Shown here: positions 4,889 through 61,620 of the stretch, piece by piece
Numbering within the stretch: position 1 is the stretch's first letter
How the letters are laid out: each line of letters opens with the position of its first letter
Assembly: GCF_008000995.1 (NCBI RefSeq)
Contig: NZ_CP042828.1
Location: 2,346,882 to 2,410,881 of the forward strand
Reading direction: 5' to 3'
DNA: 64,000 bases
From: Ruania zhangjianzhongii
Lineage (GTDB): Bacteria > Actinomycetota > Actinomycetes > Actinomycetales > Beutenbergiaceae
Program-made: the position numbers and the translations under genes
The notes under the pieces: model-generated
What the model was told of the DNA's origin: nothing
Databases searched by the model: none
Seen by the model: the letters and a program-made list of their open reading frames with translations, nothing else

Positions 4889-4961
4889 GCGACGCCATGG
4901 CTCCCGCCAACGCAGGCGGGCGGGAGTTCCACCCGTGAACCGATCTGAAGGAGGTGCGCAG

Positions 4962-7902: not shown

Positions 7903-7906
7903 GGAA

Positions 7907-9094: not shown

Positions 9095-9112
9095 ACCGCC
9101 ATCACCTGACCG

Positions 9113-9136
9113 CTGCCCGGGTCTGCACCCGGGCAG
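9113..9136 (+). terminator. Perfect 10-bp hairpin between the PLP enzyme and RidA genes
   Basis: CTGCCCGGGT and ACCCGGGCAG form a perfect 10-bp stem around the loop CTGC. There is no T-run behind it, so it may be a weak or factor-assisted terminator, or an mRNA-stabilising structure that lowers RidA expression relative to the upstream genes. Confidence 0.5.
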
Positions 9137-9175
9137 ATCGCTGACGCATGACCAACTTGGAGGTTTGTCACCATC

Positions 9176-9577: not shown

Positions 9578-9607
9578 AACTGTGGGGCAGCCCGGGGCGG
9601 TCCGCAA

Positions 9608-12478: not shown

Positions 12479-12512
12479 CACGTATCCAACTTCGATTGAC
12501 GGAGCATGTGTC

Positions 12513-14409: not shown

Positions 14410-14433
14410 AAGAAATCGACGAAGGAGTCAGTG

Positions 14434-15675: not shown

Positions 15676-15709
15676 TGGCACAACGCACGACGACCATGGG
15701 CGCGAAGGT

Positions 15710-16642: not shown

Positions 16643-16651
16643 GAGTACCCC

Positions 16652-40395: not shown

Positions 40396-41763
40396 ATGAG
40401 TGCAGTGACGTTGAGCGTGGTCGGCGCCGGGCACCGTGGAGCGGAGGCCTACGGCGACTACTGCCTGCGCTACCCCGAGCGGGCCCAGGTGGTCGCCGTC
40501 GCCGAACCCGATCCCGTCCGGCTCGCCGAGTTCGCCGCGGCCCACCAGATCCCACCGGAGCGGCAGTTCACCTCCTGGGACGACCTGCTGGCTCAGCCGA
40601 AGCTCTCCGACGGTCTCGTGGTCGCCACCCCGGACCTGGTCCGCGCCGGCCCGGTGGTCACCGGCGCCCGCCAGGGGTACGCCCTCCTGGTGGAGAAGCC
40701 GTTCGCCCCCACCGAGGAACAGCTCGATGCGATGTCCGCCGCGATCACCGAGAGCGGCTCCTTCGTCGGGGTGGCGCACGTGCTCCGGTACACGAACTTC
40801 TACCGCACGGTGAAGCAGCTCATCGATGACGGCACCATCGGTCGGCTGATCCACATCGACCAGACCGAGGACATCGGCTACTGGCACTTCGCGCACAGCT
40901 ATGTCCGCGGCAACTGGGCCCGCGCCGAGGAATCCAGCCCGATGCTGCTGGCCAAGTCCTGCCACGACCTGGACCTGCTCACCTGGCTGATCGACGAACC
41001 GGCCACGTCGGTCTCCTCGGCCGGCACGCTCACCCACTTCACGCCCGCGAACGCCCCCGAGGGGGCACCCGAACGATGCACCGACGGTTGCCCGGCCGCG
41101 GACACCTGCCCGTTCTACGCCCCCCGCCTCTACCTCGACCGACTCGCCGGCCACCACACCTGGCCGGTCACCGCCGTCACCCGAGACACCAGCCCCGAGG
41201 CCCGGCTGCAGGCACTGCACGAGGGCCCGTACGGCAGGTGCGTCTACCGCGCGGGCAGCAACCAACCCGACCACCAGGTGGTCACCATCTCCTTCGGCGC
41301 CGGTGTGCTCGCCACGCTGCGGATCGGTGCCTTCACCGGCTCGAACACCCGCACCATCCGCGTGCTCGGCTCCCACGGCGAGATCAGCGGCCGCCTGGAC
41401 ACCGGCGAGATCGAGGTCCGCCGATTCCTGCCCGCACCCGGCACCGAGATCCACGAGTGGCCCCGCTGGGACCGGGACGCCCAGGGCCGCTCCGGCATGC
41501 CCGATGACGAGACCTGGACCATCGCTGCCGGCCCCACGTCCGACCCGGACCTGGCCGATACCCCCGGCCGCCGGGAGAGCGATGGGCACGCCGGTGGCGA
41601 CGACGGGTTGATGCACGAGTTCGTCGAACAGCTGAGCCTGTGGAAGTCCGGGAAGGGCGCGGCGCTACCCACCGAGCTGCGGGACGCCGAACGCAGTCAC
41701 CGGATCGCTTTCGCCGCCGAACGCTCCCGGCACGCCGGCCAGACGATCGAGCTCGCGGGATGA
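40396..41763 (+). CDS. Gfo/Idh/MocA-family oxidoreductase with a Cys cluster
   Basis: This is a 455-residue NAD(P)-dependent sugar oxidoreductase-family protein. The Rossmann motif is VVGAGHRGAEAYG at residues 7-19 and the family motif is EKPFAPT near residue 102. A cysteine cluster C-x3-C-x5-C (RCTDGCPAADTCPFYA) near residue 230 lies in the C-terminal substrate domain and may bind a metal. The start is ATG 40396 after GAAGGTGG. Its stop overlaps the start of the GH89 gene (ATGA), so the two proteins are coupled. It probably oxidises or reduces the sugar that GH89 releases. Confidence 0.87.
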   Translation: MSAVTLSVVGAGHRGAEAYGDYCLRYPERAQVVAVAEPDPVRLAEFAAAHQIPPERQFTSWDDLLAQPKLSDGLVVATPDLVRAGPVVTGARQGYALLVEKPFAPTEEQLDAMSAAITESGSFVGVAHVLRYTNFYRTVKQLIDDGTIGRLIHIDQTEDIGYWHFAHSYVRGNWARAEESSPMLLAKSCHDLDLLTWLIDEPATSVSSAGTLTHFTPANAPEGAPERCTDGCPAADTCPFYAPRLYLDRLAGHHTWPVTAVTRDTSPEARLQALHEGPYGRCVYRAGSNQPDHQVVTISFGAGVLATLRIGAFTGSNTRTIRVLGSHGEISGRLDTGEIEVRRFLPAPGTEIHEWPRWDRDAQGRSGMPDDETWTIAAGPTSDPDLADTPGRRESDGHAGGDDGLMHEFVEQLSLWKSGKGAALPTELRDAERSHRIAFAAERSRHAGQTIELAG

Positions 41764-43982
41764 GCCAGCGGCTCTACGTCCGTGCCGTCACCCAGCTCGC
41801 CGAGCGCGTGCTCGGTCACGCGCAGGGTATTCAGTTCGCCCTGCTCGACGGCGGGGACTTACCTGCCTCGTCCAGCCTGCCCGCGTACGAGTACAGCGCA
41901 GCGGGCGGAGTGGTGCAGATCCGCGCCACCGACACCCCGGCCGCCAGTGCCGGGCTGTACGCCTACCTCAAAGACGCACTGGGTGTGCAGGTCACCTGGG
42001 ACACGCCGCTGCCGCTCCAGCTGGAAGGACCGTGGCCGGACGCCGGCCCCACCCGCCGACACACCCCGGCGCAGCACCGGTACTACCTGAACGTCGTCAC
42101 AACCGGCTACTCCGCGCCGTACTGGGACTGGGACCGGTGGCAGCGCGAGATCGACTGGATGGCGCTGCACGGCATCACCACCCCGCTGATGATGGTCGGC
42201 CACGAAGCCATCCTCGCCCGCGCGTTCACCGCGCAGGGCGCCGACCCTCAGGACGTGCGCACCTGGCTCGGCTCCACTGCCCACCTGCCCTGGACGCTGA
42301 TGGGGTGCACGAACGCCTTCGGCGGACCGCTGCCGGCCACCTGGTTCGAGGACCGCCTCGAGCTCGCGGCGCAGATCCTCAGCCGTCAGCGGGAACTCGG
42401 CATGCGGGCGGTGCTGCCCTCGTTCGGCGGCCACGTGCCAGACTCGCTGGCCGCTGCAGACACCCCCCGCACCAGCTGGCAGGGCTTCTCCACCGCACTC
42501 TTGGCGCCCGGCGAGCCGGCGTTCGCCGAGATCGCTGAGGCGGTCACCCGCGCCCAGGCCGAGCTGCTCGGCACCGACCACCTCTACAGCGCCGACCCGT
42601 TCATCGAGTCCATCCCGCCGGCCGGCGAGCCGGAGCAGCTGACCGCGCACACCCGCGCCGTCTACCGCGGGATGAGTGCCGCCGACCCGGACGCGGTCTG
42701 GGTGATGCAGGCCTGGCCGTTCCACTACCACCGGCAGTTCTGGACCACCGAGCGGATCGCGGCGGTCACCAGGGCTGTCCCCGACGAGCGCCTGCTGCTG
42801 CTCGACCTGTGGGCCGAGCACGCCCCGGTCTGGGACGACGGCCGCGGGATCAAGGACACCCCCTGGCTGTGGTCCGCGGTGCACAACTTCGGCGGCCGGT
42901 TCTCCGTGCACGGCGACCTGTTCGGGATCACGGAGAACCTTGGCGGCGTGCTCGATGCCGCCCGCGCGGGTGAGGCGAACGTCGGCCGCCTGGTCGGCAC
43001 CGGGCTGGCGATGGAGGCGATCGAGAACAACCCGGTGTTCTACGAGCTGGCCACCGACCTGGTCTGGCGCACGCCGGACGTCGCCGCCTGGGTGACCGAC
43101 TACGCACGCCAGCGTTACCAGCTCCAAGAGGCTCCGCCGTCGGCAACCGGCGCTGCATCCCGGGCCTGGGACGTGCTGCTGACCACGCTCTACCGGCGAG
43201 GAGCCAGCCGGTCCACCCCGTCACCGCTGATCGCGCGCCCCTGGGACCTCGACCCGCCGTTCGCCCGGCAGCGCAGCGCGGGGGAGTTCCTCGACCCGGA
43301 CGCGCCCGTGCTGATCTCGGCGAACATCGATGCCGAGTCCGACCCACACGTCGAGGGCGACCTGCCCGCGATCGCCGACGCCGCTGCGCACCTCCTCGAG
43401 GTCGCTCACGCGGGGAGCTCGCCGGAGGTAGCCAGCGATCTGGCCGATCTGCTCACGCACCTGCTGGCGCAACGCAGCCGGGCCGTGATCCGCGCCCTGT
43501 CCGCGGCTGCTCAGGCGGGAGAGGTCGACGGCGTGACTCGCCACGGCGCAGCGCTCACCCAGGCGTTGGCGGACCTGGACCGGCTGGCCGGCACCCAGCG
43601 GAACAGGCTGCTCGGCACCTGGCTCGCCGATGCCGCTCGCTGCGGCGCGGACCAGGCCGAGCGGGACACGCTGGTCCGCGATGCCCGGCGGCTGCTTACC
43701 GTGTGGGCGTGGCAGAGCTCCGGGCTGCACGACTACTCCGGGCGGCACTGGGCGGGACTGCTGGCCGGTTTCTACCTACCGCGCTGGCAGCTGTGGACCG
43801 ACTGGCTGACCACCGTGGCCACCCAGGGAACGGACACCGACCTGAGCCAGTTCCGCTCCGCCGTCGTGAATTTCGAAGAAGCCTGGGCGGACCGGACGAC
43901 GATCGGGGAGACCGAGCCCAGCGGTGACCTGCTCGCGATCGCGGCCGAGTTGCTGGAGCGCTACCGCGGCCCGATCGGCTGA
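41760..43982 (+). CDS. GH89 alpha-N-acetylglucosaminidase (NAGLU-like), cytosolic
   Basis: This 740-residue protein matches the NAGLU order: an N-terminal alpha/beta domain to about residue 105, the barrel (YYLNVVTTGYSAPYWDWDRW), and a helical C-terminal domain. Diagnostic blocks are WMALHGITTPLMMVGHEAI, FGGPLPATWFEDRLELA, VLPSFGGHVPDS, DPFIESIPP with Glu283 as expected acid/base, SAVHNFGGRFSVHG, and GLAMEAIENNPVFY with Glu419 as expected nucleophile. GH89 enzymes release terminal alpha-linked GlcNAc from heparan-type or mucin glycans. There is no signal peptide, so the substrate must be imported. The ATG overlaps the stop of the Gfo/Idh gene. The later sequence diverges more. Confidence 0.9.
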   Translation: MSQRLYVRAVTQLAERVLGHAQGIQFALLDGGDLPASSSLPAYEYSAAGGVVQIRATDTPAASAGLYAYLKDALGVQVTWDTPLPLQLEGPWPDAGPTRRHTPAQHRYYLNVVTTGYSAPYWDWDRWQREIDWMALHGITTPLMMVGHEAILARAFTAQGADPQDVRTWLGSTAHLPWTLMGCTNAFGGPLPATWFEDRLELAAQILSRQRELGMRAVLPSFGGHVPDSLAAADTPRTSWQGFSTALLAPGEPAFAEIAEAVTRAQAELLGTDHLYSADPFIESIPPAGEPEQLTAHTRAVYRGMSAADPDAVWVMQAWPFHYHRQFWTTERIAAVTRAVPDERLLLLDLWAEHAPVWDDGRGIKDTPWLWSAVHNFGGRFSVHGDLFGITENLGGVLDAARAGEANVGRLVGTGLAMEAIENNPVFYELATDLVWRTPDVAAWVTDYARQRYQLQEAPPSATGAASRAWDVLLTTLYRRGASRSTPSPLIARPWDLDPPFARQRSAGEFLDPDAPVLISANIDAESDPHVEGDLPAIADAAAHLLEVAHAGSSPEVASDLADLLTHLLAQRSRAVIRALSAAAQAGEVDGVTRHGAALTQALADLDRLAGTQRNRLLGTWLADAARCGADQAERDTLVRDARRLLTVWAWQSSGLHDYSGRHWAGLLAGFYLPRWQLWTDWLTTVATQGTDTDLSQFRSAVVNFEEAWADRTTIGETEPSGDLLAIAAELLERYRGPIG

Positions 43983-44247: not shown

Positions 44248-44276
44248 TTGACAATCCATTATGCATAATTAGGCTT
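44248..44276 (+). promoter_or_regulatory. Promoter with ATTATGCATAAT palindrome before the creatininase operon
   Basis: TTGACA at 44248-44253 is followed by the perfect 12-bp palindrome ATTATGCATAAT at 44258-44269, in the most AT-rich patch nearby. A -10 box could be TAGGCT at 44270-44275. The palindrome resembles GntR/FCD-type operators. A GntR gene ends the same operon, and GGCATAATG stands directly before it. Confidence 0.5.
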
Positions 44277-44282
44277 TGGGTC

Positions 44283-45059
44283 ATGCCAAATGAAACGAGC
44301 TTCGGGGAGCTCACCCGCGAGACCCTCAGCGAGCTGTCCGCCGATGCGATCGCCGTGGTGCCCCTCGGTGCCACCGAACAGCACGGCCGGCAGCTGCCGA
44401 CGGCCACGGACACGATGATCGCCACGCATCTCGCCGAGCGCTCGGTGCGTCTGGTCGCCGACGAGGTGAAGGTGGTCCTCTGCCCGACGGTGCCGTACGG
44501 GTTCTCCGAACATCACGTGCCGTTCGGCGGCACCATCAGCCTGGATAACGACACCTACATCCGTGTGCTCACCTCGATCGGCCGGTCGCTGTCCAGGAGC
44601 GGGTTCAAGCGGCTGATCTTCCTCAACGGGCACGGCGGCAACGTGGCACCGGGTTCTGCTGCCGCCGACCGGTTGGTCACCGAGCTGGGGCTCGATCTGG
44701 CCGTGGGCCTGCTGAGCTACTGGGAGTGCATCGACGAGCGCACGCGGGCGGCCTTCACGATGCCTGCACCCGGACACGCCGGGGGGTTCGAGGCCGCGCT
44801 GATCAGCGCGCTGGCCGCCGATCTGGTCCTGCCGTTGCCGCAGGACCAGGGCAGCTCCGCACGGGACGATGCCGCACGGCCGCTGAACGTCTCCGACGAG
44901 ATGAAGGGCACCACTCGGTTCCCGAACATGTGGCAGGCCTCGGACGGTGTCACCGACATCCCCGCCCACCCTGATCCGGTACTCGGTGCCGAACTGCTGG
45001 AGAACGTCAGCATCGCCATTGCCGAGTACGTCAAGCAGTTCGACGCCGCTACTCGCTGA
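44283..45059 (+). CDS. Creatininase-family metal-dependent amidohydrolase
   Basis: This is a 258-residue member of the creatininase superfamily, which opens cyclic amides or acts on small cyclic compounds. Metal-ligand motifs are Glu32-x-His34 in LGATEQHG, Asp43 in ATDT, His117 in LNGHGGN, and Glu170 in HAGGFEA. The start ATG 44283 lies only a few bases after the putative promoter, so the message may be nearly leaderless. It heads an operon with an importer, a protein of unknown function, RidA and GntR. The substrate is probably the imported compound. Creatinine itself is not implied. Confidence 0.87.
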   Translation: MPNETSFGELTRETLSELSADAIAVVPLGATEQHGRQLPTATDTMIATHLAERSVRLVADEVKVVLCPTVPYGFSEHHVPFGGTISLDNDTYIRVLTSIGRSLSRSGFKRLIFLNGHGGNVAPGSAAADRLVTELGLDLAVGLLSYWECIDERTRAAFTMPAPGHAGGFEAALISALAADLVLPLPQDQGSSARDDAARPLNVSDEMKGTTRFPNMWQASDGVTDIPAHPDPVLGAELLENVSIAIAEYVKQFDAATR

Positions 45060-45095
45060 TTCCTCCGCTCACCCGGAAGCCAATGGAGGTTCTCT

Positions 45096-46046
45096 ATGGA
45101 AAATGTCGATACGGCACAGGCCGTACCCACGAAGATGCGTAGGCGCTCTCGGCGCACTGTCTATCGGTCCATCTGGGGCACGGTCATGTCCCTGCCGGTC
45201 CTCGTTCCTTTCATCGTCTTCGGCGTCGTGCCGCTCGTCTGGCTCATGGTCATCAGCGTGACCGACTACGACGGGTTCCTCCGGATGGACTTCGTCGGCA
45301 TTGAGAACTATGTGGAGCTGATGGGGGACAGCTACTGGTGGCGTTCGGTGGCCAATACCCTGATCATCGCCGTCTGCGCGGTCGCGATCCAACTACCCAT
45401 CGGATTCGGGCTCGCCGTCGTCCTCAACGCGGCCAGCAAGCGGATCGCCACCACGTTCCGCACGGTGTTCTTCCTGCCCTACATCATTCCCGCGATGATC
45501 TGCGGTGTGCTGTTCGGGTTCCTCGTCGGCCCCACCCGGCTCGGGATCGTCAACGACCTGCTGATGAACCTCGGCCTGGTGGAGAGCCCGATCACCTTCC
45601 TCGGCACTCGGGTCGGCGCGCTGGCGGTCATCATCATTGCGACAGCCTGGATGGAGTTCGGGTTCACCCTGTTGCTGTTCCACGCCGGTCTGCAGTCGGT
45701 ACCCGAGGAGCTGTACGAAGCGGCACAGCTGGACGGCGCGAGCCGCTGGCGCAGCCTGACCAACATCACCCTGCCGTTGCTGCGCCCGATCATCAACGTG
45801 ATCTTGTTGCTGGCGATGGTCTCGGTGATGAAGTCCTTCGATGTGGTGAAGTCGTTGACGAATGGCGGCCCGGCCGGTGCCAGTGACGTCATGTTCACCC
45901 ACATCTACGACTTGTTCTTCAGTCAACAGATCTACTCGCGAATCGGTTATGCCTCCGCGGTGTCGGTGGTCGCCAGCGTGATCATCGCCGTGTCCGTGGG
46001 CGTGGTGTTCATCATGATCGGTCGCGGACGAAAGAAGGGTGCGTGA
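45096..46046 (+). CDS. CUT1-type ABC importer permease, MalF-like (cassette 3)
   Basis: This 316-residue permease has six predicted spans and the EAA loop (LYEAAQLDGASRWRSLTNIT). GGAGG at 45085-45089 supports the ATG. Its stop overlaps the start of the second permease. In this cassette the permeases precede the binding-protein gene, unlike in the other plus-strand cassettes. Confidence 0.9.
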   Translation: MENVDTAQAVPTKMRRRSRRTVYRSIWGTVMSLPVLVPFIVFGVVPLVWLMVISVTDYDGFLRMDFVGIENYVELMGDSYWWRSVANTLIIAVCAVAIQLPIGFGLAVVLNAASKRIATTFRTVFFLPYIIPAMICGVLFGFLVGPTRLGIVNDLLMNLGLVESPITFLGTRVGALAVIIIATAWMEFGFTLLLFHAGLQSVPEELYEAAQLDGASRWRSLTNITLPLLRPIINVILLLAMVSVMKSFDVVKSLTNGGPAGASDVMFTHIYDLFFSQQIYSRIGYASAVSVVASVIIAVSVGVVFIMIGRGRKKGA

Positions 46047-46894
46047 TGAAGGGCTACCGGTACCGGCGAACGCGAATCACCGTATTCGCCGCCCTGGTCG
46101 TGTGTGCGGTCACGACGCTCTTTCCGATCCTGTACGCCATCTCCGGATCGTTCAAGACGCTGCCCGAGCTCTCCAACTCCGGGTCACGACTCATTCCGCA
46201 GAACCCGACGGTCCAGAACTACCTCGACGCGCTGACCGAGGCCAATTTCTTCCAGGCCTTCACCAACAGCGTGATGGTCACCGTATCGGCGACCGTCATC
46301 GGGACGATCGCGGCCGCGATGTGCGGGTACGCCTTCGCCCGGAAGATGGTGCCCGGATCGAAGCTGTTCCTCGGTCTGATGGGTGCCGGCATCTTCCTCA
46401 GTGCCGGTACCGCGACCATCTATCCCCGCTATGTCATGGCCCAGGCCCTGGGAATCGACAACTTGGTCGGGGTGGTCGTGCTGCAGCTGGCGGAGATCAC
46501 GCTGCTGACGACCTTCCTGGTCCGGGCCTACTGCCTGGACATGGGTGAAGAGGTCGAGCACGCTGCCATGATCGACGGCTGCGGTACCTTCGGTGCCTTC
46601 TGGCACGTGGGGATCCCGGCCATGCGCCCCATCCTGACTACGGCAGCGGTACTGACCTTCCAATGGTCCTGGAACAGCTTCCAGGTTCCGCTGGTGTTCA
46701 CGTTGCCTCGGCCGGATCTGCAGACCCTCACCGTGAGCGTCTTCGCTATCAAATCGGCCGGTGGAGACGGTTTCGGGGAATACACGATTCTGCTCGCGGG
46801 CGCGGTGATGGCAGTGCTGCCCATCATCGTCGTCTACATCATTGCGCAGCGCTATTTCATGGATGGTCTGACAGCAGGAGCTTTGAAAGGATGA
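46046..46894 (+). CDS. CUT1-type ABC importer permease, MalG-like (cassette 3)
   Basis: This is a 282-residue permease with six spans, the EAA loop (VEHAAMIDGCGTFGAFWHVG, slightly degenerate at the second residue) and the tail MDGLTAGALKG. The ATG at 46046 overlaps the preceding stop (TGATG), and AGAAGG lies upstream. Its stop in turn overlaps a start-like ATG of the binding-protein gene. Confidence 0.9.
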   Translation: MKGYRYRRTRITVFAALVVCAVTTLFPILYAISGSFKTLPELSNSGSRLIPQNPTVQNYLDALTEANFFQAFTNSVMVTVSATVIGTIAAAMCGYAFARKMVPGSKLFLGLMGAGIFLSAGTATIYPRYVMAQALGIDNLVGVVVLQLAEITLLTTFLVRAYCLDMGEEVEHAAMIDGCGTFGAFWHVGIPAMRPILTTAAVLTFQWSWNSFQVPLVFTLPRPDLQTLTVSVFAIKSAGGDGFGEYTILLAGAVMAVLPIIVVYIIAQRYFMDGLTAGALKG

Positions 46895-46899
46895 TGACA

Positions 46900-48225
46900 A
46901 TGCACAAGCGCAAGCTTGGGGTGATCAGTGTGCTGGCCGGCACAGCTTTGGTGGCGGCCGGATGCTCAGGTGGCGATGACGATGGCGGTGTGCCGACCAT
47001 CAGCATCTGGGTGCAGTCAAGCAGCGAGACCGCGGTCGACGAACGATGGGTCGAAGACTTCAACGCAGCGAATGACGACGTGCAGGTCGAGTACCGGAGC
47101 ATGCCGTCCGACCGCTTCGCCAACGACCTCATGCTCGCCATGCGAACGGACGAGGGTCCGGACATCTTCCACGGCCCGTCTCCGGCGGAAGTGGTCAACC
47201 CGGGATTCGCCCTGCCGCTGGAGGACTACCTCTCCGAGGAGACCCGCGCCGAGTTCGAGGGCTATCTGGAAGGGTCCTTCGACTACATCATCCAGGACAG
47301 CATCTACGCGCTGCCGTACAAGTTCAACGGCACCCGGCTGCTGATCAACCGGGACCTGTTTGAGGAAGCCGGCCTCGACCCGGACTCACCACCGCAAACC
47401 TTCAGTGAGGTGCGTGAGGCTGCGGCGGCCATCACCGAGTCCTCAGGCGGTAACGCCTACGGATTCGCTGTGCCGCTGGCCTGGAACGGGGTCTACCAGA
47501 ACCACATCGAACCGCTGGCGATGGCGGTGAACCCGAACCTCACCCGCGTGGGGCTGTTCGACCGTGAGCGGCAGGAGTTCGCGATGGAGGAGTTCGAACC
47601 GATCCTCCAGCTCTACCGCGACGTGCAGGACGACGGCGCGATGTTCCCCAGCATCGGCACGCTCGACCGGGACAGTCTGCGCAGCGAGTTCGCGAACGGA
47701 CAGGTCGGCATGTACGTGGGCAGCTCCCTCGAGGTCGGCGTGATGAACGATGCGTTGGACACCGATGTGGACTGGGATGCGGTCCGTATCCCGATCCCGG
47801 ACGGTATGGAGTACCAGCGTTCCAGCGGGACGGTCGTGGCCGGTGGCTTCGTCAGCTCCCAGACCGAGGACCCCGAGCTCGCGGTGCGCGTCTACGAGGA
47901 GTGGCTGAGCGCAGACCGCACCTGTGAGCTCACCGAGGAGGGGCACATCATCCCGGTCCTGGGGAGCCTGAACGAGTGCGTACCCAGCGATATCACCGGG
48001 TACGAGGAGTTCGTCCCGTCCGACGAGATGCTGGACACCCCGGACCCGATCGCGCCCGGGAACGCCCTGCGCATCACCGGCACTCCGTACGAGGACATCA
48101 TTGCCGAGCTGGCGGTGACCGATGCCGAGATGGCCCCCGCCCTCGAGGAGCTCTCCACTCGCTACACCGAGGCGTACCAGGAGGGGGTGGACTCAGGTGA
48201 GCTCGACGCCGGTGACTACAGCTGA
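46900..48225 (+). CDS. CUT1-type ABC importer, substrate-binding lipoprotein (cassette 3)
   Basis: This is a 441-residue SBP_bac_1 lipoprotein. Three close ATGs (46891, 46894, 46900) precede the signal peptide; 46900 has the best spacing from AAAGG. The lipobox ends at Cys22 (VAAGC). The DSIYALPYKFNGTRLLINRDLFEEAG segment is typical. The next gene starts within its last codons. The ligand is unknown and probably the substrate of the creatininase-family enzyme or the 48197 protein. Confidence 0.9.
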   Translation: MHKRKLGVISVLAGTALVAAGCSGGDDDGGVPTISIWVQSSSETAVDERWVEDFNAANDDVQVEYRSMPSDRFANDLMLAMRTDEGPDIFHGPSPAEVVNPGFALPLEDYLSEETRAEFEGYLEGSFDYIIQDSIYALPYKFNGTRLLINRDLFEEAGLDPDSPPQTFSEVREAAAAITESSGGNAYGFAVPLAWNGVYQNHIEPLAMAVNPNLTRVGLFDRERQEFAMEEFEPILQLYRDVQDDGAMFPSIGTLDRDSLRSEFANGQVGMYVGSSLEVGVMNDALDTDVDWDAVRIPIPDGMEYQRSSGTVVAGGFVSSQTEDPELAVRVYEEWLSADRTCELTEEGHIIPVLGSLNECVPSDITGYEEFVPSDEMLDTPDPIAPGNALRITGTPYEDIIAELAVTDAEMAPALEELSTRYTEAYQEGVDSGELDAGDYS

Positions 48226-49441
48226 TCCGCACGCCGGCCAGGCTGCCGCGAAGCCGCGGGTCGCCGTCATCCTCACCACCTATTTCCGCGGATCGCACTC
48301 CGATGTGGTGGTGGGCCGGCTGCTGGACGGGTACCTCCTCGAAGGGGAGAACCGGCAGCCGGACGTCGAGGTGGTCTCGGCGTACCTGGAGCTGCTCGGC
48401 GACCCCTACGGCGGCGACGATCCACGCGATGACATCGGCGTCGAGATGTTCGAGCAGTTCGGCATCCCGATGTTCGACTCGGTGGCCGAGGCCATCGGAC
48501 TGGGCGAGCCCGGCGTGGCCGTCGACGCAGTGCTGGTGATCGGCGAGCACGGCGGGTACGAGGAGAACATGTACGACCAACGCCTCTATCCGCGCAAGCG
48601 GCTCGTGGACGCAGCGATCTCGACCATGTGGGGCGCCGGAACGTTCGTGCCGGTGTTCACCGACAAGCAGCTGGCCTGGCGCACGCGGGACGCGTTCCGG
48701 ATGGTCGAGGACTGCCGGCGCTTCGGGGTGCCGCTGATGGCGGGGTCGAGCATTCCGCTGGCCTGGCGCAGCGGTGATCAGACCTGGCCTGCTGGCGAAC
48801 CGATGGACGCCGCCGTGGTGGTCGGCTTCGGTGGTGCGGACATCTATGGCACGCACCTGCTGGAGCTGTGCCAGTCGTTCACCGAACGCCGAGCAGGCGG
48901 TGAGACCGGGGTCGAGCAGGTGCTCGGGCTCACCGGAGATCAAGCCCGAGCCGCTCTGACCGACGGCCGCATCGACCGCGAGCTGTACGAACGAGCTCTC
49001 GCGACGGTCGACCTCGAGCCAGAGGGCCAGGCGCGGATAGCCGAGTCCGGCATCGACGTGTTCGAGGTGATCCACCGCGACGGGTTGCGCAGCTGGATCG
49101 TGATCCACGAGGGGCTGTACCGGTTCGGGGTGGCGGCCCGCGGCCCGAACCTCAGCACCGCTACGCGCGTCTGGGCCCAGCGGGGCCCGGAGTTCGGGCA
49201 CTTCTCCTACCTGGTACGCAACATCGAGCAGTTCTTCAGCACCGGCAAGCCGGGCTGGCCTACCGAACGGGTCCTCCTCGTGACTGGTGTGCTTGACGCC
49301 GCGATGCGATCGCGGCACGCGAGTCGCGGGCAGGGTGTGCCGGTTCCGGTAGTCACTCCGGAGTTGGACTTTGGCTACCAGCACGACGACAGTGCGGTGA
49401 TCCACGCGCACGGTCTCCCTGTGATCGACGATTCTGAGTAA
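48197..49441 (+). CDS. Unrecognised conserved-looking protein in the creatininase operon
   Basis: I do not recognise this 414-residue protein. GTG 48197 overlaps the binding-protein gene by 29 bases, and GGGGGTGG lies upstream. It has no signal peptide or membrane segment. It opens with a beta strand and glycine-poor turn (RVAVILTTYFRGSHSDVVV), followed by an acidic GGDDPRDDIGVEMFEQFG segment, VIGEHGGYEENMYDQRLYPRKR, FTDKQLAWR, and a C-terminal half rich in WIVIHEGLYRF-type strands. The HGGYE and LYPRKR blocks look like active-site loops. Codon usage matches its neighbours. An enzyme acting on the imported compound is the natural guess. Confidence 0.75.
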   Translation: MSSTPVTTADPHAGQAAAKPRVAVILTTYFRGSHSDVVVGRLLDGYLLEGENRQPDVEVVSAYLELLGDPYGGDDPRDDIGVEMFEQFGIPMFDSVAEAIGLGEPGVAVDAVLVIGEHGGYEENMYDQRLYPRKRLVDAAISTMWGAGTFVPVFTDKQLAWRTRDAFRMVEDCRRFGVPLMAGSSIPLAWRSGDQTWPAGEPMDAAVVVGFGGADIYGTHLLELCQSFTERRAGGETGVEQVLGLTGDQARAALTDGRIDRELYERALATVDLEPEGQARIAESGIDVFEVIHRDGLRSWIVIHEGLYRFGVAARGPNLSTATRVWAQRGPEFGHFSYLVRNIEQFFSTGKPGWPTERVLLVTGVLDAAMRSRHASRGQGVPVPVVTPELDFGYQHDDSAVIHAHGLPVIDDSE

Positions 49442-49451
49442 GAGGAAACAG

Positions 49452-49841
49452 ATGCAATTCGCAACATCGCCAGACGCGCCCCGCCCGGCCGGACCGTACA
49501 GCCATGCCGTGCGGGTGGGCGGTTTCGTCTACACCGCCGGCTTCGGGCCGCAGCATCCGGATACGGGGGAGGTGCCCGAGGGAGTGGTCGCCCAGACCCG
49601 ACAGGTGCTGGAGAACCTGCGGGTCGCGCTGCGCGCCGTGGGTGCGGAGCTGGACCAGGTGGTCAAGACCACCTGCCATCTACGGCATCCCGAAGCCGAT
49701 TTCGCCGGGTTCAACGAGGTGTACCGGGAGTTCTTCGACGAGCCCTACCCGGTGCGCACCACGGTCGGCTCGGAACTTCCGGGAATCCTGGTGGAGATCG
49801 ACGCCGTCGCCGTGTCGGGCGACACAGCCGAGACGGCGTAG
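49452..49841 (+). CDS. RidA-family enamine/imine deaminase
   Basis: This 129-residue RidA-family protein has the marks GGFVYTAGFGPQHPDTGEV, the LENLRVALRAVGAELDQVVK helix, and PVRTTVGSELPGILVEIDAVA with the conserved substrate-binding Arg. It is the second RidA in the window and only moderately similar to the one at 9176. Its place in the operon suggests that an enamine or imine arises in breakdown of the imported compound, which would then contain nitrogen. Confidence 0.9.
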   Translation: MQFATSPDAPRPAGPYSHAVRVGGFVYTAGFGPQHPDTGEVPEGVVAQTRQVLENLRVALRAVGAELDQVVKTTCHLRHPEADFAGFNEVYREFFDEPYPVRTTVGSELPGILVEIDAVAVSGDTAETA

Positions 49842-49854
49842 GCATAATGTGGCG

Positions 49855-50574
49855 ATGAGCGATCCGATCTTCGGCCTCACCCTGGGAGCGTCCGGTCAGT
49901 CGATGGTCGACCGGATCGAGGGCACCCTCTCGGACGCCATCCGCAACGGTGACCTCCCCGGCGGACACCGGCTTCGCGAGATCCCCATCGCTCAGCAGTT
50001 CGACTGTTCCACCACGCCGGTGCGAGAGGCGATTCGACGTCTCGCTTCTGCCGGGTTGGTGACGCTAGCTCCCCGCCGCGGGGCGATCGTCAGCGCCATC
50101 TCGATGGACGAGATCGAAGATCTCTACGAGCTGCGGATGCTTGTGGAGCCGGCGATGGCGCGCCGAGCAGCCGCAGCAGCGGCCGAGCGGCCGGAGGCGC
50201 TGGAGCGACTGGGAGAGCTGGTGCGCAGACAGACCGAGCAGCTCGAGTCGGGTGAGGTGGGCGATGGCCTGTTGGACGCCTCGGTGCACGCAGCCATCGC
50301 TGAGCTGGCCGGAAACGTGGTCATCGCCGGGCACGTCTCGAACGCCACCCAACAGGTCGAAGCGGTGCAGGCCCGGGCACGGAAGTGGGCGCCACGTGGG
50401 CTGGAGTCAGCTCTGCACTTCCACACCCGCTTGCTCGCTGCGATCGATGCCGGGGACGCCGACCGGGCAGAGTCTGTGATGCGCGAGCATCTCGTCGAAG
50501 CGCAGGAGGGTGTCGTCGCTGGTCTGCAACGGCAGGCGGACGACGCAGTGCAGCGGCCCGAAGGGACACTCTGA
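49855..50574 (+). CDS. GntR-family regulator, FCD subgroup
   Basis: This 239-residue regulator starts at ATG 49855 without a clear ribosome site, 13 bases after the ridA stop. The N-terminal winged helix has IPIAQQFDCSTTPVREAIRRL. The helical FCD ligand domain contains the metal-type residues in ELRMLVEPAMA, SVHAAIAELAGN and FHTRLLAAIDAGD. It ends the creatininase operon and probably controls it through the palindrome at 44258. GGCATAATG just before its start is a possible half site. Confidence 0.88.
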   Translation: MSDPIFGLTLGASGQSMVDRIEGTLSDAIRNGDLPGGHRLREIPIAQQFDCSTTPVREAIRRLASAGLVTLAPRRGAIVSAISMDEIEDLYELRMLVEPAMARRAAAAAAERPEALERLGELVRRQTEQLESGEVGDGLLDASVHAAIAELAGNVVIAGHVSNATQQVEAVQARARKWAPRGLESALHFHTRLLAAIDAGDADRAESVMREHLVEAQEGVVAGLQRQADDAVQRPEGTL

Positions 50575-51939: not shown

Positions 51940-53244
51940 ATGACCACTATGCGCCCAAACCTACGTTCCGGCACTAGGCGCCGAACGCTGGCGGCATCAG
52001 CCATTGCGCTTTCCATGCTCGGCCTTACCGCGTGCGGGAGCGGAAGCGCCGGAGGGTCGAGCCTGCAGATCATTCTGACCACGAATCCCTGGTCCACGGA
52101 GATCGTGGAAAGGCTGAGCGACTTTGAGGAGGAGAGTGGTATCGACGTTGAGGTCACGCAGTTGACCCGCGAGCAAGCCCAGTCCACTCTCACCGTGAAA
52201 CTCAAGGCCGGCGCATCCGATTTGGACGTCTATATGTATGCCCCGCCGCAGCTGGGCCTCCAGTACGCACAGAACGGGTGGATGCTCGACCTGACGGACA
52301 GAGTCGCCGAGGACAGCGTATTCGACTGGGACGATTTCATGCCCGCCACCCGGGACGCCGTCACCTTCGAGGAACGCGTGTATGGAATTCCCACGGTGAC
52401 TGAACGTGAGGTTCTCTTCTACCGGAAGGATCTGTTCGCCGCAGCCGGGCTGGAGCCGCCCACCACCTTCGCGGAGCTCGAGGCGGCCGCGGCCGAGCTG
52501 AACCAGGATGATGTCACCGGCTACATCGCGCGGGCCGAGCCCAGTGCGGCCATCACCCAGTTCTCCGGTTTCCTGTACGGGCATGGCGGCGACTTCATCA
52601 CCGACGGCGAAGCGTCGATCAACAGCGACGAAGCAGTCGCTGCGTATCAGACCTATGGCGATCTGTATCGCGAGCACGGACCGGTCGGCCTGGTGGGTAC
52701 CACCCAGGAGCTGGTCGCCATGTTCCAGCAGGGGAGTGCGGCGATGATGATCGACGCCGAGGTTTGGTGGGGGCAGCTGGTTGACCCAGAGGCGTCCACC
52801 ATTCCCGCCGAGGACGTTGGTGTGGCCCCGTTACCGGGCGGGTCAGCAGGATCTCGGCCCTACAACATTCCGTCGCAGGCCCTGGGCATCAACCCCGATA
52901 CGTCGATGGAGGACGAGGCGTGGGAGTTCGTCCAGTGGGCCACCAGCCCGGAGATGGTCTTCGACATCCAACAGTCTGGAGTGTTCGGCGCACGGCAGAG
53001 CGTCTGGGACGACCCGGACGCGCTCACCGGGATCCCTGAGGACTACCGGGAGACGCTGCTGGCATCGATCGAGAGTGGCATCGGACATGACCGGCCGCAG
53101 GTGATGCAGGTCGGACGGGCCCGGGATATCGCCGGTGCGCCGATCCTGGTCGCGATCGAGGGCGGCGATGTTGCCAGCGCCGCGGATCAGGCACAGGCAC
53201 AGCTGGAGGCGCTGCTTGCCGAAGAGCGAGAGGCGAGCGAGTAG
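51940..53244 (+). CDS. CUT1-type ABC importer, substrate-binding lipoprotein (cassette 4)
   Basis: This is a 434-residue SBP_bac_1 lipoprotein starting at ATG 51940 after AAAGGAG. The Arg-rich N-terminus and hydrophobic core end in LTAC with Cys32. It is a close paralogue of the 3611 protein: for example ERVYGIPTVTEREVLFYRKD here against ERVLGVPLATEREVLYYRTD there. It is followed by two permeases and two catabolic genes. Confidence 0.9.
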   Translation: MTTMRPNLRSGTRRRTLAASAIALSMLGLTACGSGSAGGSSLQIILTTNPWSTEIVERLSDFEEESGIDVEVTQLTREQAQSTLTVKLKAGASDLDVYMYAPPQLGLQYAQNGWMLDLTDRVAEDSVFDWDDFMPATRDAVTFEERVYGIPTVTEREVLFYRKDLFAAAGLEPPTTFAELEAAAAELNQDDVTGYIARAEPSAAITQFSGFLYGHGGDFITDGEASINSDEAVAAYQTYGDLYREHGPVGLVGTTQELVAMFQQGSAAMMIDAEVWWGQLVDPEASTIPAEDVGVAPLPGGSAGSRPYNIPSQALGINPDTSMEDEAWEFVQWATSPEMVFDIQQSGVFGARQSVWDDPDALTGIPEDYRETLLASIESGIGHDRPQVMQVGRARDIAGAPILVAIEGGDVASAADQAQAQLEALLAEEREASE

Positions 53245-53315
53245 GTGGGGCCAGGAACGAAGCTGGCCGGACTTTGTGCCGATCCACCCACTCGAGCGCT
53301 GAGGAGCCCGCACAG

Positions 53316-54182
53316 ATGATTCGAGCTCTCCGGATGAACCGGACCAAACTGATCATGATCACGCCGGCAGTTCTCGTGATCGTGGCGTTGATCGCCTTCC
53401 CCATCATCTACACGGTGCAGCTCAGTTTCACCGAGGGCCTCGGCTCCGGTCAGGCATTCAGCCTCGACAACTACCGTGCGGTGCTCTCCGACACCGGAAG
53501 GTTCTGGCCGGCCGTCCTGCGCACCGTCATCTTCACCGTCGGGGCGCTGGTTCTTCAGCTGGTCCTTGGTATCGGTACCGCGCTCTTGCTCCGCAGACCA
53601 TTTCGTGGGCACAACGCGGTCAAGACGATCCTCATCCTCCCGCTGGTGACGAGCCCGGTGGCTGTTGCTTCCATCTGGCTTCTCATGCTGGAGCCGAACC
53701 TGGGTATTGTGAACGAGGTCCTTGGCTGGTTCCAGATCGCACCACAGGGATGGCTCAAAGATCCGGGCCAGGCGTTTCCGACGCTCATCCTGCTGGACAT
53801 CTGGCAGTTCACCCCTCTCATTGTGTTGATTACCCTCGCCGGTTTGAGTGGCCTGCCCGAAGAGGTCGAAGAGGCGGCTGTCGTGGACGGAGCCAACTAT
53901 CTGCAGAGAACCCGTCACGTCACTCTGCCGCTTCTGCGCAACACCATCGTTGTGGCTGCTGTGCTCCGCGGTGTCGATGCCATGAAGACCTTCGACATTA
54001 TCTATGCGACCGTCGGGCCAGGTGGTGGGGGCGGACACACCGCGGAAACGTTGAACGTGTACGTGTATGGCCTCAGCTTTGACTATATTGAGATCGGGAA
54101 GGCTGCGGTTGCTCTCATCGCGTTCTTCATTATGGTGCTGGCCGTCGCACTCCTTATTATCAGAAGGGCGGCACGAGAATGA
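53316..54182 (+). CDS. CUT1-type ABC importer permease, MalF-like (cassette 4)
   Basis: This 288-residue permease starts at ATG 53316 after GAGGAG at 53301-53306. It has six spans and the EAA loop (VEEAAVVDGANYLQRTRHVT). It is paralogous to the permease at 4962. Its stop overlaps the next start. Confidence 0.9.
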   Translation: MIRALRMNRTKLIMITPAVLVIVALIAFPIIYTVQLSFTEGLGSGQAFSLDNYRAVLSDTGRFWPAVLRTVIFTVGALVLQLVLGIGTALLLRRPFRGHNAVKTILILPLVTSPVAVASIWLLMLEPNLGIVNEVLGWFQIAPQGWLKDPGQAFPTLILLDIWQFTPLIVLITLAGLSGLPEEVEEAAVVDGANYLQRTRHVTLPLLRNTIVVAAVLRGVDAMKTFDIIYATVGPGGGGGHTAETLNVYVYGLSFDYIEIGKAAVALIAFFIMVLAVALLIIRRAARE

Positions 54183-55006
54183 GTATCGCAGTCAAGACTG
54201 GTCGCATCACCAAATCCATGCGCGCCCTCGCGATCGTGAGCGTGACCCTGGTAGCAGCGTTCCCCTTTGTGTGGATGTTGTTGGCGTCATTCAAGCACAA
54301 TGTTCAGATCTCCGACGTGAGCCAGTCCTTCGTCTTCTCGCCGACTCTGGACAACTACGTGTCGGTGCTGGAGACCAACAACTACTTCCAGTATTTCGTC
54401 AACAGCCTCACGGTATCGCTCGGCGCCACGATCGCATCGCTGGTGCTCGGTGTGCCGGCGGCGTGGGCGATAGCCAAGTTCAGTATGGCGCGGTTGAATA
54501 CGATGGTTCTACTGGCGCGGATCATCCCTGCTGTAACGCTTCTGGTGCCGTGGTACCTGCTATTCTCCAAACTAGAGATGGTCGGCGGATACCCAGCGCT
54601 GATCTTGAGCCATGTGTTCATCTGCATGCCCCTGATCATGTGGATCATGACAGGATTCTTTGCATCGCTGCCAGCGGAGTTGGACGAGGCAGGCCGGATT
54701 GATGGGTTGAGCGAGTTCGGAACATTTCTCCACATCTCCCTTCCGCTGTCCGTTCCTGGTATCGCGACCGGCAGTATTCTGGCTATCATCTTCAGTTGGA
54801 ACAACTTCCTGTTCTCGCTGGTGCTCGCCGATACGAGTACCTTGACCCTGCCGGTTGCCATCTACCAGTTCATGTCTTATGCCGGCATCGATTGGGGTGG
54901 TCTGATGGCGGCCGCTTCGGTCATGACGTTGCCCATCATCGTGTTCGGACTGTTCGCGCAGCGCTACGTTGTCGCCGGACTCACCGCCGGCGCGACGAAG
55001 GGCTAG
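54179..55006 (+). CDS. CUT1-type ABC importer permease, MalG-like (cassette 4)
   Basis: This 275-residue permease has six spans, a recognisable EAA loop with Asp in place of the usual second residue (LDEAGRIDGLSEFG), and the tail VVAGLTAGATKG. The start overlaps the preceding stop as ATGA (54179-54182). It is closely similar to the permease at 5885. Confidence 0.9.
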   Translation: MSIAVKTGRITKSMRALAIVSVTLVAAFPFVWMLLASFKHNVQISDVSQSFVFSPTLDNYVSVLETNNYFQYFVNSLTVSLGATIASLVLGVPAAWAIAKFSMARLNTMVLLARIIPAVTLLVPWYLLFSKLEMVGGYPALILSHVFICMPLIMWIMTGFFASLPAELDEAGRIDGLSEFGTFLHISLPLSVPGIATGSILAIIFSWNNFLFSLVLADTSTLTLPVAIYQFMSYAGIDWGGLMAAASVMTLPIIVFGLFAQRYVVAGLTAGATKG

Positions 55007-55110: not shown

Positions 55111-56328
55111 GTGGTTGTACTCGATAGCACGTTGATGGCTCCTTGGGATGATGGGACGTCGTCGCCCCGGATTGAGGACGTGCAGACGTTCGTGACGGCT
55201 CCCGAAGGCCTGAACCTGGTGGTGGTTCGCGTCGAGACGGACGTTCCGGGCCTGTACGGGCTGGGCTGCGGAACTCATGCCTTCCGCGCCAAGGCCGTGA
55301 AGGACATTGTGGACGACTACCTCACGCCCCGGGTGATCGGCCGCAGCGCTCGGGATGTCACCGACATCTTCCAGACGTTGAAGCTGGCGCCGTACTGGCG
55401 CGGGGGGCCGGTAGACAACAGTGCGTTGTCGGGCATCGACATGGCGCTCTGGGACATCAAGGCCAAACTGGCCAACCAGCCGGTGTGGAGCCTGACGGGC
55501 GGTCTGGTGCGCTCCTACCTGCCCACCTACATCTCGGTGTTCGCCACATCGCTCGAGGAGCTCGTGGTGGGAGTTCGGAAGCGTTGGGACGAGGGATATC
55601 GAAGCTTTCGGCCGATGATCGCCGGGCACGACTACGGGTCCCAGCGGTGCACCGGGCGTGCCTACATCGCTGACTGGGTCGCTACCTTGACCCGGCTGGT
55701 GGAGGAGTTCGGTACCGAGGCAGAGTACGTGGTCGACGTCCATGGGCGTCTGCAGCCGCAAGAAGTGTTCGAGCTCGCACGAGCCATGGATGAGTTCCCA
55801 CTGGTGTATCTGGAGGACCCGTTCCCGCACGAGCTGACCCGGTGGCTGCCGCAGCTCCGTGGCTTCAGTTCGCTGCGCATCGCGATCGGTGAGACGTTCG
55901 CCAGCATCGAGGAGTTTCTCCCGCTGATCGTCGCATCGAGCATCGACGTGGTCCGGAGTCATATCTCGATGATCGGCGGGTTCAGTGCAGCGCACCGGCT
56001 GGCGACGTTGGCCGAGCAGTTCGGGGTGCAAACCGCCTGGCATGGCCCGCTGGACCTGAGTCCGCTCGGCCACGCGGCGAACGCGGCCCTGGGCCTGGCC
56101 AGCCCGAACTTCGGAATTCACGAGCATCACGAGCCCAGCGAAGCAGCCATCGAGGTGTTCCCCGGGGCGCACACAGCCGAGGCGGGCCGGATCGTGCCGT
56201 GGCACACGCCGGGCTGGGGCGTGGAATTCGACGAGGCCGCGGCACGCAGGCACCCCCCGATGTCCCCCTTCACCATCTCCCGTTTGGAGGCGAATCGTGC
56301 GCTGGATGGCAGCCTGCTGAAACCCTAG
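55111..56328 (+). CDS. Enolase-superfamily dehydratase, mannonate dehydratase (RspA/ManD)-like
   Basis: This 405-residue protein starts at GTG 55111 with GAGAGG six bases upstream. It follows the RspA/ManD subgroup order: YWRGGPVDNSALSGIDMALWDIKAK near residue 90, the metal strand VVDVHGRLQPQEV, VYLEDPFPHEL, IAIGETFAS, then the HGPLDLSPLGHAANAALGL block with the catalytic His and the NFGIHE ending. These enzymes dehydrate D-mannonate or D-gluconate to 2-keto-3-deoxygluconate, and some members have little activity. Behind an importer, an acid-sugar or glycoside substrate is likely. Confidence 0.86.
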   Translation: MVVLDSTLMAPWDDGTSSPRIEDVQTFVTAPEGLNLVVVRVETDVPGLYGLGCGTHAFRAKAVKDIVDDYLTPRVIGRSARDVTDIFQTLKLAPYWRGGPVDNSALSGIDMALWDIKAKLANQPVWSLTGGLVRSYLPTYISVFATSLEELVVGVRKRWDEGYRSFRPMIAGHDYGSQRCTGRAYIADWVATLTRLVEEFGTEAEYVVDVHGRLQPQEVFELARAMDEFPLVYLEDPFPHELTRWLPQLRGFSSLRIAIGETFASIEEFLPLIVASSIDVVRSHISMIGGFSAAHRLATLAEQFGVQTAWHGPLDLSPLGHAANAALGLASPNFGIHEHHEPSEAAIEVFPGAHTAEAGRIVPWHTPGWGVEFDEAAARRHPPMSPFTISRLEANRALDGSLLKP

Positions 56329-58377: not shown

Positions 58378-59241
58378 TCACTTCTCGGCGCCGGAGGCGA
58401 GGCCGCTGATCAGTAGCCGCTGGGCGAAGATGAACAGCACCACCACCGGGATGGTCACCACGATCGAGCCCGCGAGCAGGATCGTCACCGGGGTGTCGAA
58501 CTCGGTGAGCTGGGCGATCCCCAGTGGTGCGGTCCACAGCTCGCGGGACTGCACCAGGAACAGTAGCGCGTACAGGTACTCGTTCCAGGCGATCATGAAC
58601 ATGTACATCGCCGTGGCGGCGATCCCGGGCAGGGCGATCGGCAGCACGATCCGCCAGATCACCCCCATCAGGGAGCAGCCATCGATCAGTGCCGCATCCT
58701 CGATCGAGGACGGCAGCGCGATGAAGTAGTTCCGCAGCATGTACAGCGAGACCGGCACGGTCAGCGCCACGTACACCACCACTAGCCCCACCAAGGTGCC
58801 GGTCAGCCCCGCCCGGGAGAGCAGCACGAACAGCGGTACGGCCAGCACCACCCCGGGGAACATGTACACGGCCACGATGATCGCGTTGCCCACGCTGCGT
58901 CCGGAGAACCGGATCCGTGCAGTGGCATAGGCGCCCAGGATGCTCACCAAGATCGAGGCGAGCACCGTGCCCACGGCCAGGATCAGCGAGTTGACCAGGA
59001 ACCCGCCCAGGCCGTAGCCGCCGTCGGCCGTGGACCTCAGGGCATCGGCGTAGGCGCTGAAATCGAGTTCGCTCGGCGCGGGGAACAGGTTCAGCGGGTC
59101 GTTCAGCACCGCGGCGAACGGCCGCACCGAGAGCACGATCCCGTACAGCACCGGCCCGATGGACAGCACCAGGGTGATGATGATGATCGAGGCGCGCAGC
59201 GCCTTCACGCCGCCCGACTCTCTGCGAACCGAGGTACTCAC
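58378..59241 (-). CDS. CUT1-type ABC importer permease, MalG-like (cassette 5)
   Basis: This 287-residue permease starts at GTG 59241, which overlaps the stop of the partner permease and follows GGAGG. It has six spans and an EAA-like loop (IEDAALIDGCSLMGVIWRIV). The tail ISGLASGAEK is slightly unusual in ending with Glu-Lys rather than Val-Lys-Gly. Confidence 0.9.
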   Translation of the reverse strand: MSTSVRRESGGVKALRASIIIITLVLSIGPVLYGIVLSVRPFAAVLNDPLNLFPAPSELDFSAYADALRSTADGGYGLGGFLVNSLILAVGTVLASILVSILGAYATARIRFSGRSVGNAIIVAVYMFPGVVLAVPLFVLLSRAGLTGTLVGLVVVYVALTVPVSLYMLRNYFIALPSSIEDAALIDGCSLMGVIWRIVLPIALPGIAATAMYMFMIAWNEYLYALLFLVQSRELWTAPLGIAQLTEFDTPVTILLAGSIVVTIPVVVLFIFAQRLLISGLASGAEK

Positions 59242-60197
59242 ATCGCCTCCTTCCGCCGGTTGGCCAACGCCCAGAGGATCCCGAACACGATCAGGATCGC
59301 CGTCATGCACAGCCCGTAGGCGGCAGCGCTACCGACATCGGCGCGCACGGTCAGCTCCTTGAACACCTTCACCGCCATCACCTCGGTGCCACCGGCGCCC
59401 TGGGTGAGCAGGTAGATGTCGTTGAAGTTCTGGAAGGACCAGATGAACCGCAGCAGCAGCAGCACCATCACCACGGTCCGCAGCTGCGGCAGCACGATGT
59501 GAGTGAGCCGCTGGCGGGCGTTCGCACCGTCGATCGCGGCCGCGTCCTCGAGCTCGGCCGGCACGTTCTGCAGCCGGGCGGTCACGAACAGGAACGTGAA
59601 CGGCGCCGACTTCCAGATCTCGAACAGGATCACCACGATCAGCGCCAGCGGGATGCCCACCCCGGCCACGTCGAAGGACTTGGTGGTCAGGAACGCGATC
59701 GGCGCTTCCCAGCCGAGCACCTGCATCCCGAAGGCGTTGATGATCCCGTACTGCGGGTTGAGCATCGTGCGCCAGATGGTCGCCCCGGCGATCACCGGCA
59801 GCACGTACGGCACCAGGAACAGCGCCCGCACCACGTTCTGCCCGCGGAACCGTTTGCGCATCGCCAGCGCCACGATCACCCCGCCGCCGATCACCCCGAT
59901 CGTGGTGAAAACGGCGTAGGCCACCGTGGTGCCCAGCGCGCCCCAGAACGCACCCGAGCCGAGCGCGTCCCGCATGTTCCCCAGCGACCACTCGATGTTG
60001 CCCAGGTTCAGCTGGGGGATGTCGATCAGCCGGAAGTCGGCGAAGGCGAACACCACCACCGCGCAGAACGGGATGAGGATCACCAGCGTGATCGCCAGGT
60101 AGGACGGTGCGGAGAGCAGGTACCCGTGCAGGTTGGCGCGCTGGGCCCGGCTCAGCCGGGACCCGCGCGCCACCTTCGTCGTGCGTGCGTCAGCCAT
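59238..60197 (-). CDS. CUT1-type ABC importer permease, MalF-like (cassette 5)
   Basis: This is a 319-residue permease with six spans, a basic N-terminus (KVARGSRLSRAQRANLHG) and the EAA-like loop (LEDAAAIDGANARQRLTHIV). It lies three bases after the binding-protein gene and is coupled to the second permease. Confidence 0.9.
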   Translation of the reverse strand: MADARTTKVARGSRLSRAQRANLHGYLLSAPSYLAITLVILIPFCAVVVFAFADFRLIDIPQLNLGNIEWSLGNMRDALGSGAFWGALGTTVAYAVFTTIGVIGGGVIVALAMRKRFRGQNVVRALFLVPYVLPVIAGATIWRTMLNPQYGIINAFGMQVLGWEAPIAFLTTKSFDVAGVGIPLALIVVILFEIWKSAPFTFLFVTARLQNVPAELEDAAAIDGANARQRLTHIVLPQLRTVVMVLLLLRFIWSFQNFNDIYLLTQGAGGTEVMAVKVFKELTVRADVGSAAAYGLCMTAILIVFGILWALANRRKEAM

Positions 60198-60200
60198 CTA

Positions 60201-61577: not shown

Positions 61578-61620
61578 TGTCCTGCTCCTTTGCATCGAGG
61601 TTCCGGGAACGGTGAACGGC

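Follow-up and report, generated by a model that had tools for sequence, protein, structure and literature searches.

What kind of enzyme is an unrecognised protein of 414 residues, encoded in a carbohydrate-importer operon of Ruania zhangjianzhongii, and on what sort of compound does it act? The gene lies in a stretch of 64,000 nucleotides of contig NZ_CP042828.1 (hereafter the window; positions are counted from its first letter), and a sequence-only reading of that DNA had been unable to place the protein in any family and had taken the gene set to suggest catabolism of a nitrogen-containing cyclic sugar or inositol-type compound. The first point stands for family models, since the protein has no match in Pfam or NCBIfam even at an expectation value (E) of 1, but it fails at the level of structure and profile comparison, which places the protein in the Gfo/Idh/MocA superfamily. 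Known members of this superfamily act on sugars, cyclitols and aminosugars. We put at roughly 60% the reading that the operon serves GntR-controlled uptake and breakdown of a nitrogen-containing carbohydrate or sugar derivative, with the 414-residue protein most likely catalysing a non-redox step or holding its cofactor in an atypical way.

That the gene is real can be judged from a sister species of the same genus (genome G015), which retains both its reading frame and its start. The gene begins with GTG, preceded by a Shine-Dalgarno sequence (AGGAGGGG, 48179-48186) within the 3' end of the binding-protein gene. The two proteins are 86% identical in amino acids, with a nonsynonymous divergence (dN) of 0.083 against a synonymous divergence (dS) of 0.837 (dN/dS about 0.1), and the GC content at third codon positions (GC3) is 0.86, the same as in the operon neighbours. 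Low dN relative to dS and matching GC3 thus indicate a real gene under purifying selection; that it is real had been argued earlier from its overlap with the neighbouring gene and its codon use. Single-sequence scans of genome contigs and viral contigs found no relatives, a single-sequence search of the PDB gave chance matches only, and literature searches returned no description of the protein. An alignment-based scan of the genomes, unlike the same kind of scan of viral contigs, which again found none, detected relatives in Verrucomicrobiota, Acidobacteriota, Planctomycetota, Bacteroidota and Gemmatimonadota beyond Actinomycetota, that is, in six phyla. Accordingly, two candidate explanations were rejected: an orphan gene or artefact, given the conserved frame and start, the dN/dS ratio and the six phyla, and a lineage-specific family, given the wider relatives.

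Within Actinomycetota the relatives are sporadic, being found in two species of the window genus, in Occultella gossypii (G010 and L007, which are one contig with the same content), on an Arthrobacter plasmid and, in another actinobacterial family, in 5 of 22 genomes. Many non-actinobacterial members carry an RR-type, twin-arginine-like N-terminal export signal, as read from their sequences; apart from export-signal models, the 26 relatives have no meaningful Pfam or NCBIfam match, and none of the 26 family members matches the Pfam GFO_IDH_MocA domain. In a phylogenetic tree the window protein falls in a clade of eight (support 100/99) with its counterparts from G015, Occultella, G594 and G694 and three paralogues from one Propionibacteriaceae metagenome-assembled genome (MAG). 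In that MAG (L008:6693-12377), the three full paralogues lie within 6 kb around a Mur-ligase-like gene, and a truncated fourth is located at 9431-9832. A further homologue (L041, G671:C9:140428-141575) comes in two adjacent pieces, covering profile positions 12-238 and 241-389, and is either a broken gene or the product of a sequencing error.

The fold was approached through a confident AlphaFold model (predicted local distance difference test score 90.1, predicted template modelling score 0.89). When it was compared using Foldseek and VIA, the leading PDB matches were Gfo/Idh/MocA proteins, aligned over residues 16-393. The top match is the aminoglycoside dehydrogenase GenD2 (VIA Z 26.7 to 6nor_C, 281 residues at 3.0 Å), followed by the aminoglycoside dehydrogenase KanD2 (Z 24.8), inositol dehydrogenases (Z about 23-24) and NAD-dependent glycosidases. 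The best match in a profile search of the PDB, weak by itself, is likewise a Gfo/Idh/MocA protein and falls exactly over the EKP motif, and an hhalign comparison with eight canonical Gfo/Idh proteins from these loci gave E 1.3e-5, a probability of 80.6 and 295 aligned columns. Judged from model and alignments together, the protein has the two-domain Gfo/Idh/MocA fold, and a superfamily-level placement is possible; the whole fold is shared with GenD2, KanD2, IolG, RgNanOx/YjhC and GFOR at Z 22-27.

The family departs from these proteins in several motifs. Motifs were counted over 26 family members, with P-loop positions 26, 28 and 31 equated by hand in an alignment anchored on H34. All 26 retain H34, E117, R133, D156, K157, H220, E230, R232, D295 and R358, among them the lysine of the EKP motif (K157) and the histidine of the G-x-H motif (H220). 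Glycine is absent from all three positions of the GxGxxG loop in every member; a conserved T-x-[YW]-x3-S-H-A-D stands in its place, with a loop of seven residues predicted between strand 21-26 and helix 34-44. The EKP motif is replaced by VPVF-x-DK-H-L, in which K157 aligns to the EKP lysine while the flanking glutamate and proline are lost, and D-x-G-x-H is replaced by (D/E)-x-Y-G-x-H, with H220 invariant and the acidic residue D/E215 one position further away. In addition, a 15-residue insert (EHG...YPR, with E117 and R133 invariant) follows strand 111-115, presumably at the site where canonical members contact the nicotinamide side of the cofactor. The two sites by which the parent family holds NAD(P) (nicotinamide adenine dinucleotide or its phosphate) have thus each been remodelled and the new sequence kept, a pattern unlike decay. 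Position 65, near the end of beta-2, is acidic (D/E) in 24 of the 26 members.

These residues bear on two other views of the protein. On the first, it would be a standard dehydrogenase of sugars, aminosugars or cyclitols that depends on NAD(P) and grips it with a non-canonical T-x-[YW]-x3-S-H loop; its nearest folds are GenD2, KanD2 and inositol dehydrogenases, and the catalytic-type lysine and histidine as well as the acidic residue of beta-2 are kept, but the complete absence of the three P-loop glycines, the seven-residue predicted loop and the conserved insert make this unlikely, though the odds against it are not long. The loss of the canonical cofactor motif would also suit a dehydrogenase-derived sensor, scaffold or other non-catalytic partner; this we regard as very improbable, because many polar residues, including the superfamily lysine and histidine, are invariant across six phyla and because export-type N-termini occur in several phyla.

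A creatininase-family gene clusters with the 414-residue gene in the sister species and in Occultella (L007), G594 (L039) and G694 (L040); it lies two genes downstream in Occultella, immediately downstream and overlapping in G594, and adjacent in G694. The linked genomes, of 4.8-7.3 Mb, contain 1-5 creatininases each, and we estimate the chance of one falling within a few kb at roughly 0.3-0.7% per genome. Since order and distance vary between lineages, the linkage reflects more than simple shared synteny. Co-occurrence had been set in advance as a test by the sequence-only reading, and it was found in other genera with rearranged gene order. Three genomes of one genus (G686, G663 and G671) were kept out of the linked set; their creatininase lies about 11 kb off on the opposite strand and, for the two of them included in a tree of the creatininases, falls in a different branch. 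In that tree, several deep forks of which are weak, the linked creatininases lie close together, at a distance from most of the others that these genomes encode, and those of L048 and L055 fall among the linked ones. The clusters of L048 and L055 have no 414-residue gene, but carry a class III aminotransferase, an Azf-like dehydrogenase and a Gfo/Idh protein, to which the L055 cluster (L061) adds lactonases, a RidA-family protein and a partial M81 gene. The combination of creatininase, class III aminotransferase, Azf-like dehydrogenase and Gfo/Idh protein without the 414-residue gene, seen at L061 and L062, may be a separate catabolic cluster of actinobacteria that has yet to be described.

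The Occultella homologue is accompanied by creatininase, M81, aminotransferase, lactonase, Gfo/Idh and RidA genes, and the theme of these clusters, as read from gene families, suggests a sugar-like molecule that is oxidised, hydrolysed at a lactone or amide bond and stripped of an amine. Linkage to M81 stands out in genomes with one copy (Occultella and L009) and is weak in those with 5-10. In the Verrucomicrobiales MAG L009 (7734-11131), the sole M81 (MlrC-like) gene of the genome precedes the homologue by about 0.6 kb. Creatininase and RidA as a universal partner set were rejected, as partners differ outside Actinomycetota, where amidohydrolases, a pyrroloquinoline quinone (PQQ) dehydrogenase, DUF1501, oxidase genes or M81 are the neighbours, and some actinobacterial loci are without creatininase; none is within reach of the homologues in the Arthrobacter and Propionibacteriaceae loci.

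The creatininase-family product of the window scores below every equivalog cut-off: 102.5 bits against 172 for MftE (TIGR03964), 89.7 against 235 for creatininase (TIGR04448) and 57.6 against 245 for IolN, a 3-dehydro-scyllo-inosose hydrolase (NF041098). It shares PF02633 and most metal-ligand motifs with creatininase, MftE, IolN and ArfB/BrbF, but has NGHGGN where creatininase proper has NGHYEN. By these scores and motifs it is a member of the creatininase family, but not creatininase, MftE or IolN proper. Activities in this family include those on cyclic amides and formamides, the ArfB/BrbF formamidase being a member (PMC9478397). The RidA protein shares PF01042 with RidA/YjgF/UK114 proteins and falls slightly below the TIGR00004 cut-off (102.9 against 106.25 bits), and the arginine of its R-T-T-V motif aligns to the Rid arginine of YjgF (1xrg).

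The IolN score is also what bears on an inositol route, in which the operon would degrade an inositol-type compound or inosamine and the creatininase-family enzyme, like IolN, would hydrolyse a diketo-cyclitol. In its favour, the creatininase-family protein resembles IolN at the level of the family, the Gfo/Idh fold is common to inositol dehydrogenases, and in the distant relative L037 iol-like genes (KduI/IolB, PfkB, a thiamine pyrophosphate (TPP) enzyme and Gfo/Idh) lie about 3 kb from the homologue. However, the IolN score is far under its cut-off, with the MftE and creatininase models closer, the homologues of Occultella, G594 and G694 have no recognisable iol-like genes next to them, and what is conserved upstream of the operon in the window genus is a gene for an alpha-N-acetylglucosaminidase. 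We consider this route quite improbable; of the substrate proposed by the sequence-only reading, the nitrogen-containing part is what the neighbours suggest, and the inositol-type part is not established.

The same upstream neighbour, a NAGLU-type enzyme, raises another candidate, an aminosugar (an N-acetylhexosamine glycoside or derivative) that it would free for the operon. Its gene adjoins the operon in both species and a DUF4838 protein occurs in a related cluster; in addition, CUT1 importers carry oligosaccharides. Against this, the NAGLU gene and its Gfo/Idh partner look separately transcribed, about 300 bp upstream, and no NAGLU relative was found in Occultella or the other linked loci examined, so that we hold the aminosugar to be a rather unlikely substrate.

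For the nitrogen-containing carbohydrate or sugar derivative that we prefer, we infer the following chemistry and order of steps. The CUT1 importer would take up the compound, the creatininase-family metallohydrolase would open an amide, lactam or beta-dicarbonyl-type bond, and RidA would remove the resulting imine or enamine. The 414-residue protein may then act on a keto- or imino-sugar intermediate through K157 and H220, most likely by elimination, hydration or isomerisation, or else with an atypically held cofactor, and the operon's own GntR regulator would control expression. A nitrogen-containing substrate would fit the recurring RidA, aminotransferase and amidohydrolase-type neighbours. 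Four points weigh on the other side. The acidic residue at position 65 could still bind the ribose of an NAD cofactor. GFOR, which binds NADP tightly, has a twin-arginine-type N-terminus, and by analogy the twin-arginine-like N-termini of many non-actinobacterial relatives would fit a bound cofactor too. The substrate is guessed from neighbours of a generic kind, and, because neighbours differ outside Actinomycetota, the actinobacterial setting may not define the role of the family.

A known precedent for such chemistry is the levoglucosan operon lgdA-B1-B2-C, in which, according to the available part of its published description, oxidation, elimination, hydration and reduction are divided among several proteins (PMC7676230). 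It shares with the present operon an importer, Gfo/Idh-type enzymes and keto-sugar elimination and hydration chemistry, but there elimination and hydration are carried out by proteins annotated as sugar phosphate isomerases, unlike our proposal, and that part of the description includes no creatininase, RidA or loop-less Gfo/Idh protein (PMC7676230). More broadly, and at somewhat less than even odds, this unnamed and widespread family of Gfo/Idh/MocA fold may have dropped NAD(P) permanently and reused the lysine and histidine for non-redox carbohydrate chemistry, with an uncharacterised creatininase-family hydrolase and RidA as its actinobacterial partners. Few sugar-modifying enzymes are as common as the Gfo/Idh/MocA proteins, which annotation recognises in large part by their glycine loop; Pfam and NCBIfam miss this branch, which in six phyla or more retains fold and catalytic residues without the loop. 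If truly cofactor-free, it would be an example of a dehydrogenase scaffold turned to other chemistry, and a dedicated operon with a unique putative operator and an importer offers a direct route to the substrate.

The operon consists of seven tightly packed genes with intergenic gaps of -29 to +36 bp and a single conserved promoter and palindrome (Table 1). The sister species has the identical seven genes in identical order, again with the NAGLU gene upstream, and dN is well below dS in all seven. The sequence-only reading had placed the creatininase-family, CUT1, RidA, GntR and 414-residue genes correctly, and its interval, 44283-50574, is exact; its view of the set as a regulated uptake and catabolic unit agrees with the overlapping genes and the conserved promoter and operator. 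The importer was recognised as CUT1 from its SBP_bac_1/8 lipoprotein and two BPD permeases. The signal and lipobox of the lipoprotein were read off the sequence, its best start has an ATGA overlap with permease 2, and its counterpart in the sister species likewise has 444 residues. No ATPase gene for the importer is present within the operon, and actinobacterial CUT1 systems commonly lack one of their own. The upstream Gfo/Idh/MocA and NAGLU genes overlap each other, adjoin the operon in the sister species too, and are probably transcribed separately from it.

Table 1. Positions in the window of the operon, its promoter and the adjoining upstream genes
Feature	Position	Strand	Basis
Gfo/Idh/MocA dehydrogenase (upstream pair)	40396-41763	+	Pfam; synteny
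NAGLU-type alpha-N-acetylglucosaminidase (upstream pair)	41760-43982	+	Pfam; synteny
Promoter with putative operator	44248-44275	+	TTGACA 44248-44253; perfect palindrome ATTATGCATAAT 44258-44269; -10 TAGGCT 44270-44275
Creatininase-family metallohydrolase, 258 aa	44283-45059	+	PF02633, 177.5 bits; EQHG...TD...NGHGGN...GGFE motifs
CUT1 ATP-binding cassette (ABC) permease 1	45096-46046	+	PF00528; top NCBIfam match UgpA-like
CUT1 ABC permease 2	46043-46894	+	PF00528; top NCBIfam match GlcU-like; 4-bp overlap at each end
CUT1 solute-binding lipoprotein, 444 aa	46891-48225	+	PF01547/PF13416; lipobox VAAGC
414-aa protein, divergent Gfo/Idh/MocA fold without GxGxxG loop	48197-49441	+	Profile, structure-model and alignment comparisons
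RidA-family imine/enamine deaminase	49452-49841	+	PF01042, 102.7 bits; family arginine kept
GntR-family regulator with FCD domain	49855-50574	+	PF00392 and PF07729

In the promoter, the -10 element is of the TANNNT type and the 12-bp palindrome sits in the spacer between TTGACA and the -10 element. The ATG of the first gene starts only 8 nt downstream of the -10 element, and the operon transcript is thus probably leaderless, to judge from this spacing. Ahead of the first gene, CATACTTGACAATnnATTATGCATAATTAGGC is common to the window species and G015, while the remaining intergenic DNA has diverged. The palindrome occurs once in the window and once in the 5.1-Mb genome with up to one mismatch allowed, and we infer that the GntR protein encoded in the operon uses it as its operator.

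Elsewhere in the window, region 6715-9574 contains an M20 amidase-like gene, a D-serine-dehydratase-like gene and, after them, another RidA gene (from about 9152), and forms a second, separate imine-handling cluster within the same 64 kb. The window also has four or more other CUT1-type importer genes or gene sets (4800-5885, 14410-17494, 51940-55006 and 59238-61802) and two enolase-superfamily genes (11315-12481 and 55111-56328), and it looks like a sugar-acid catabolism island.

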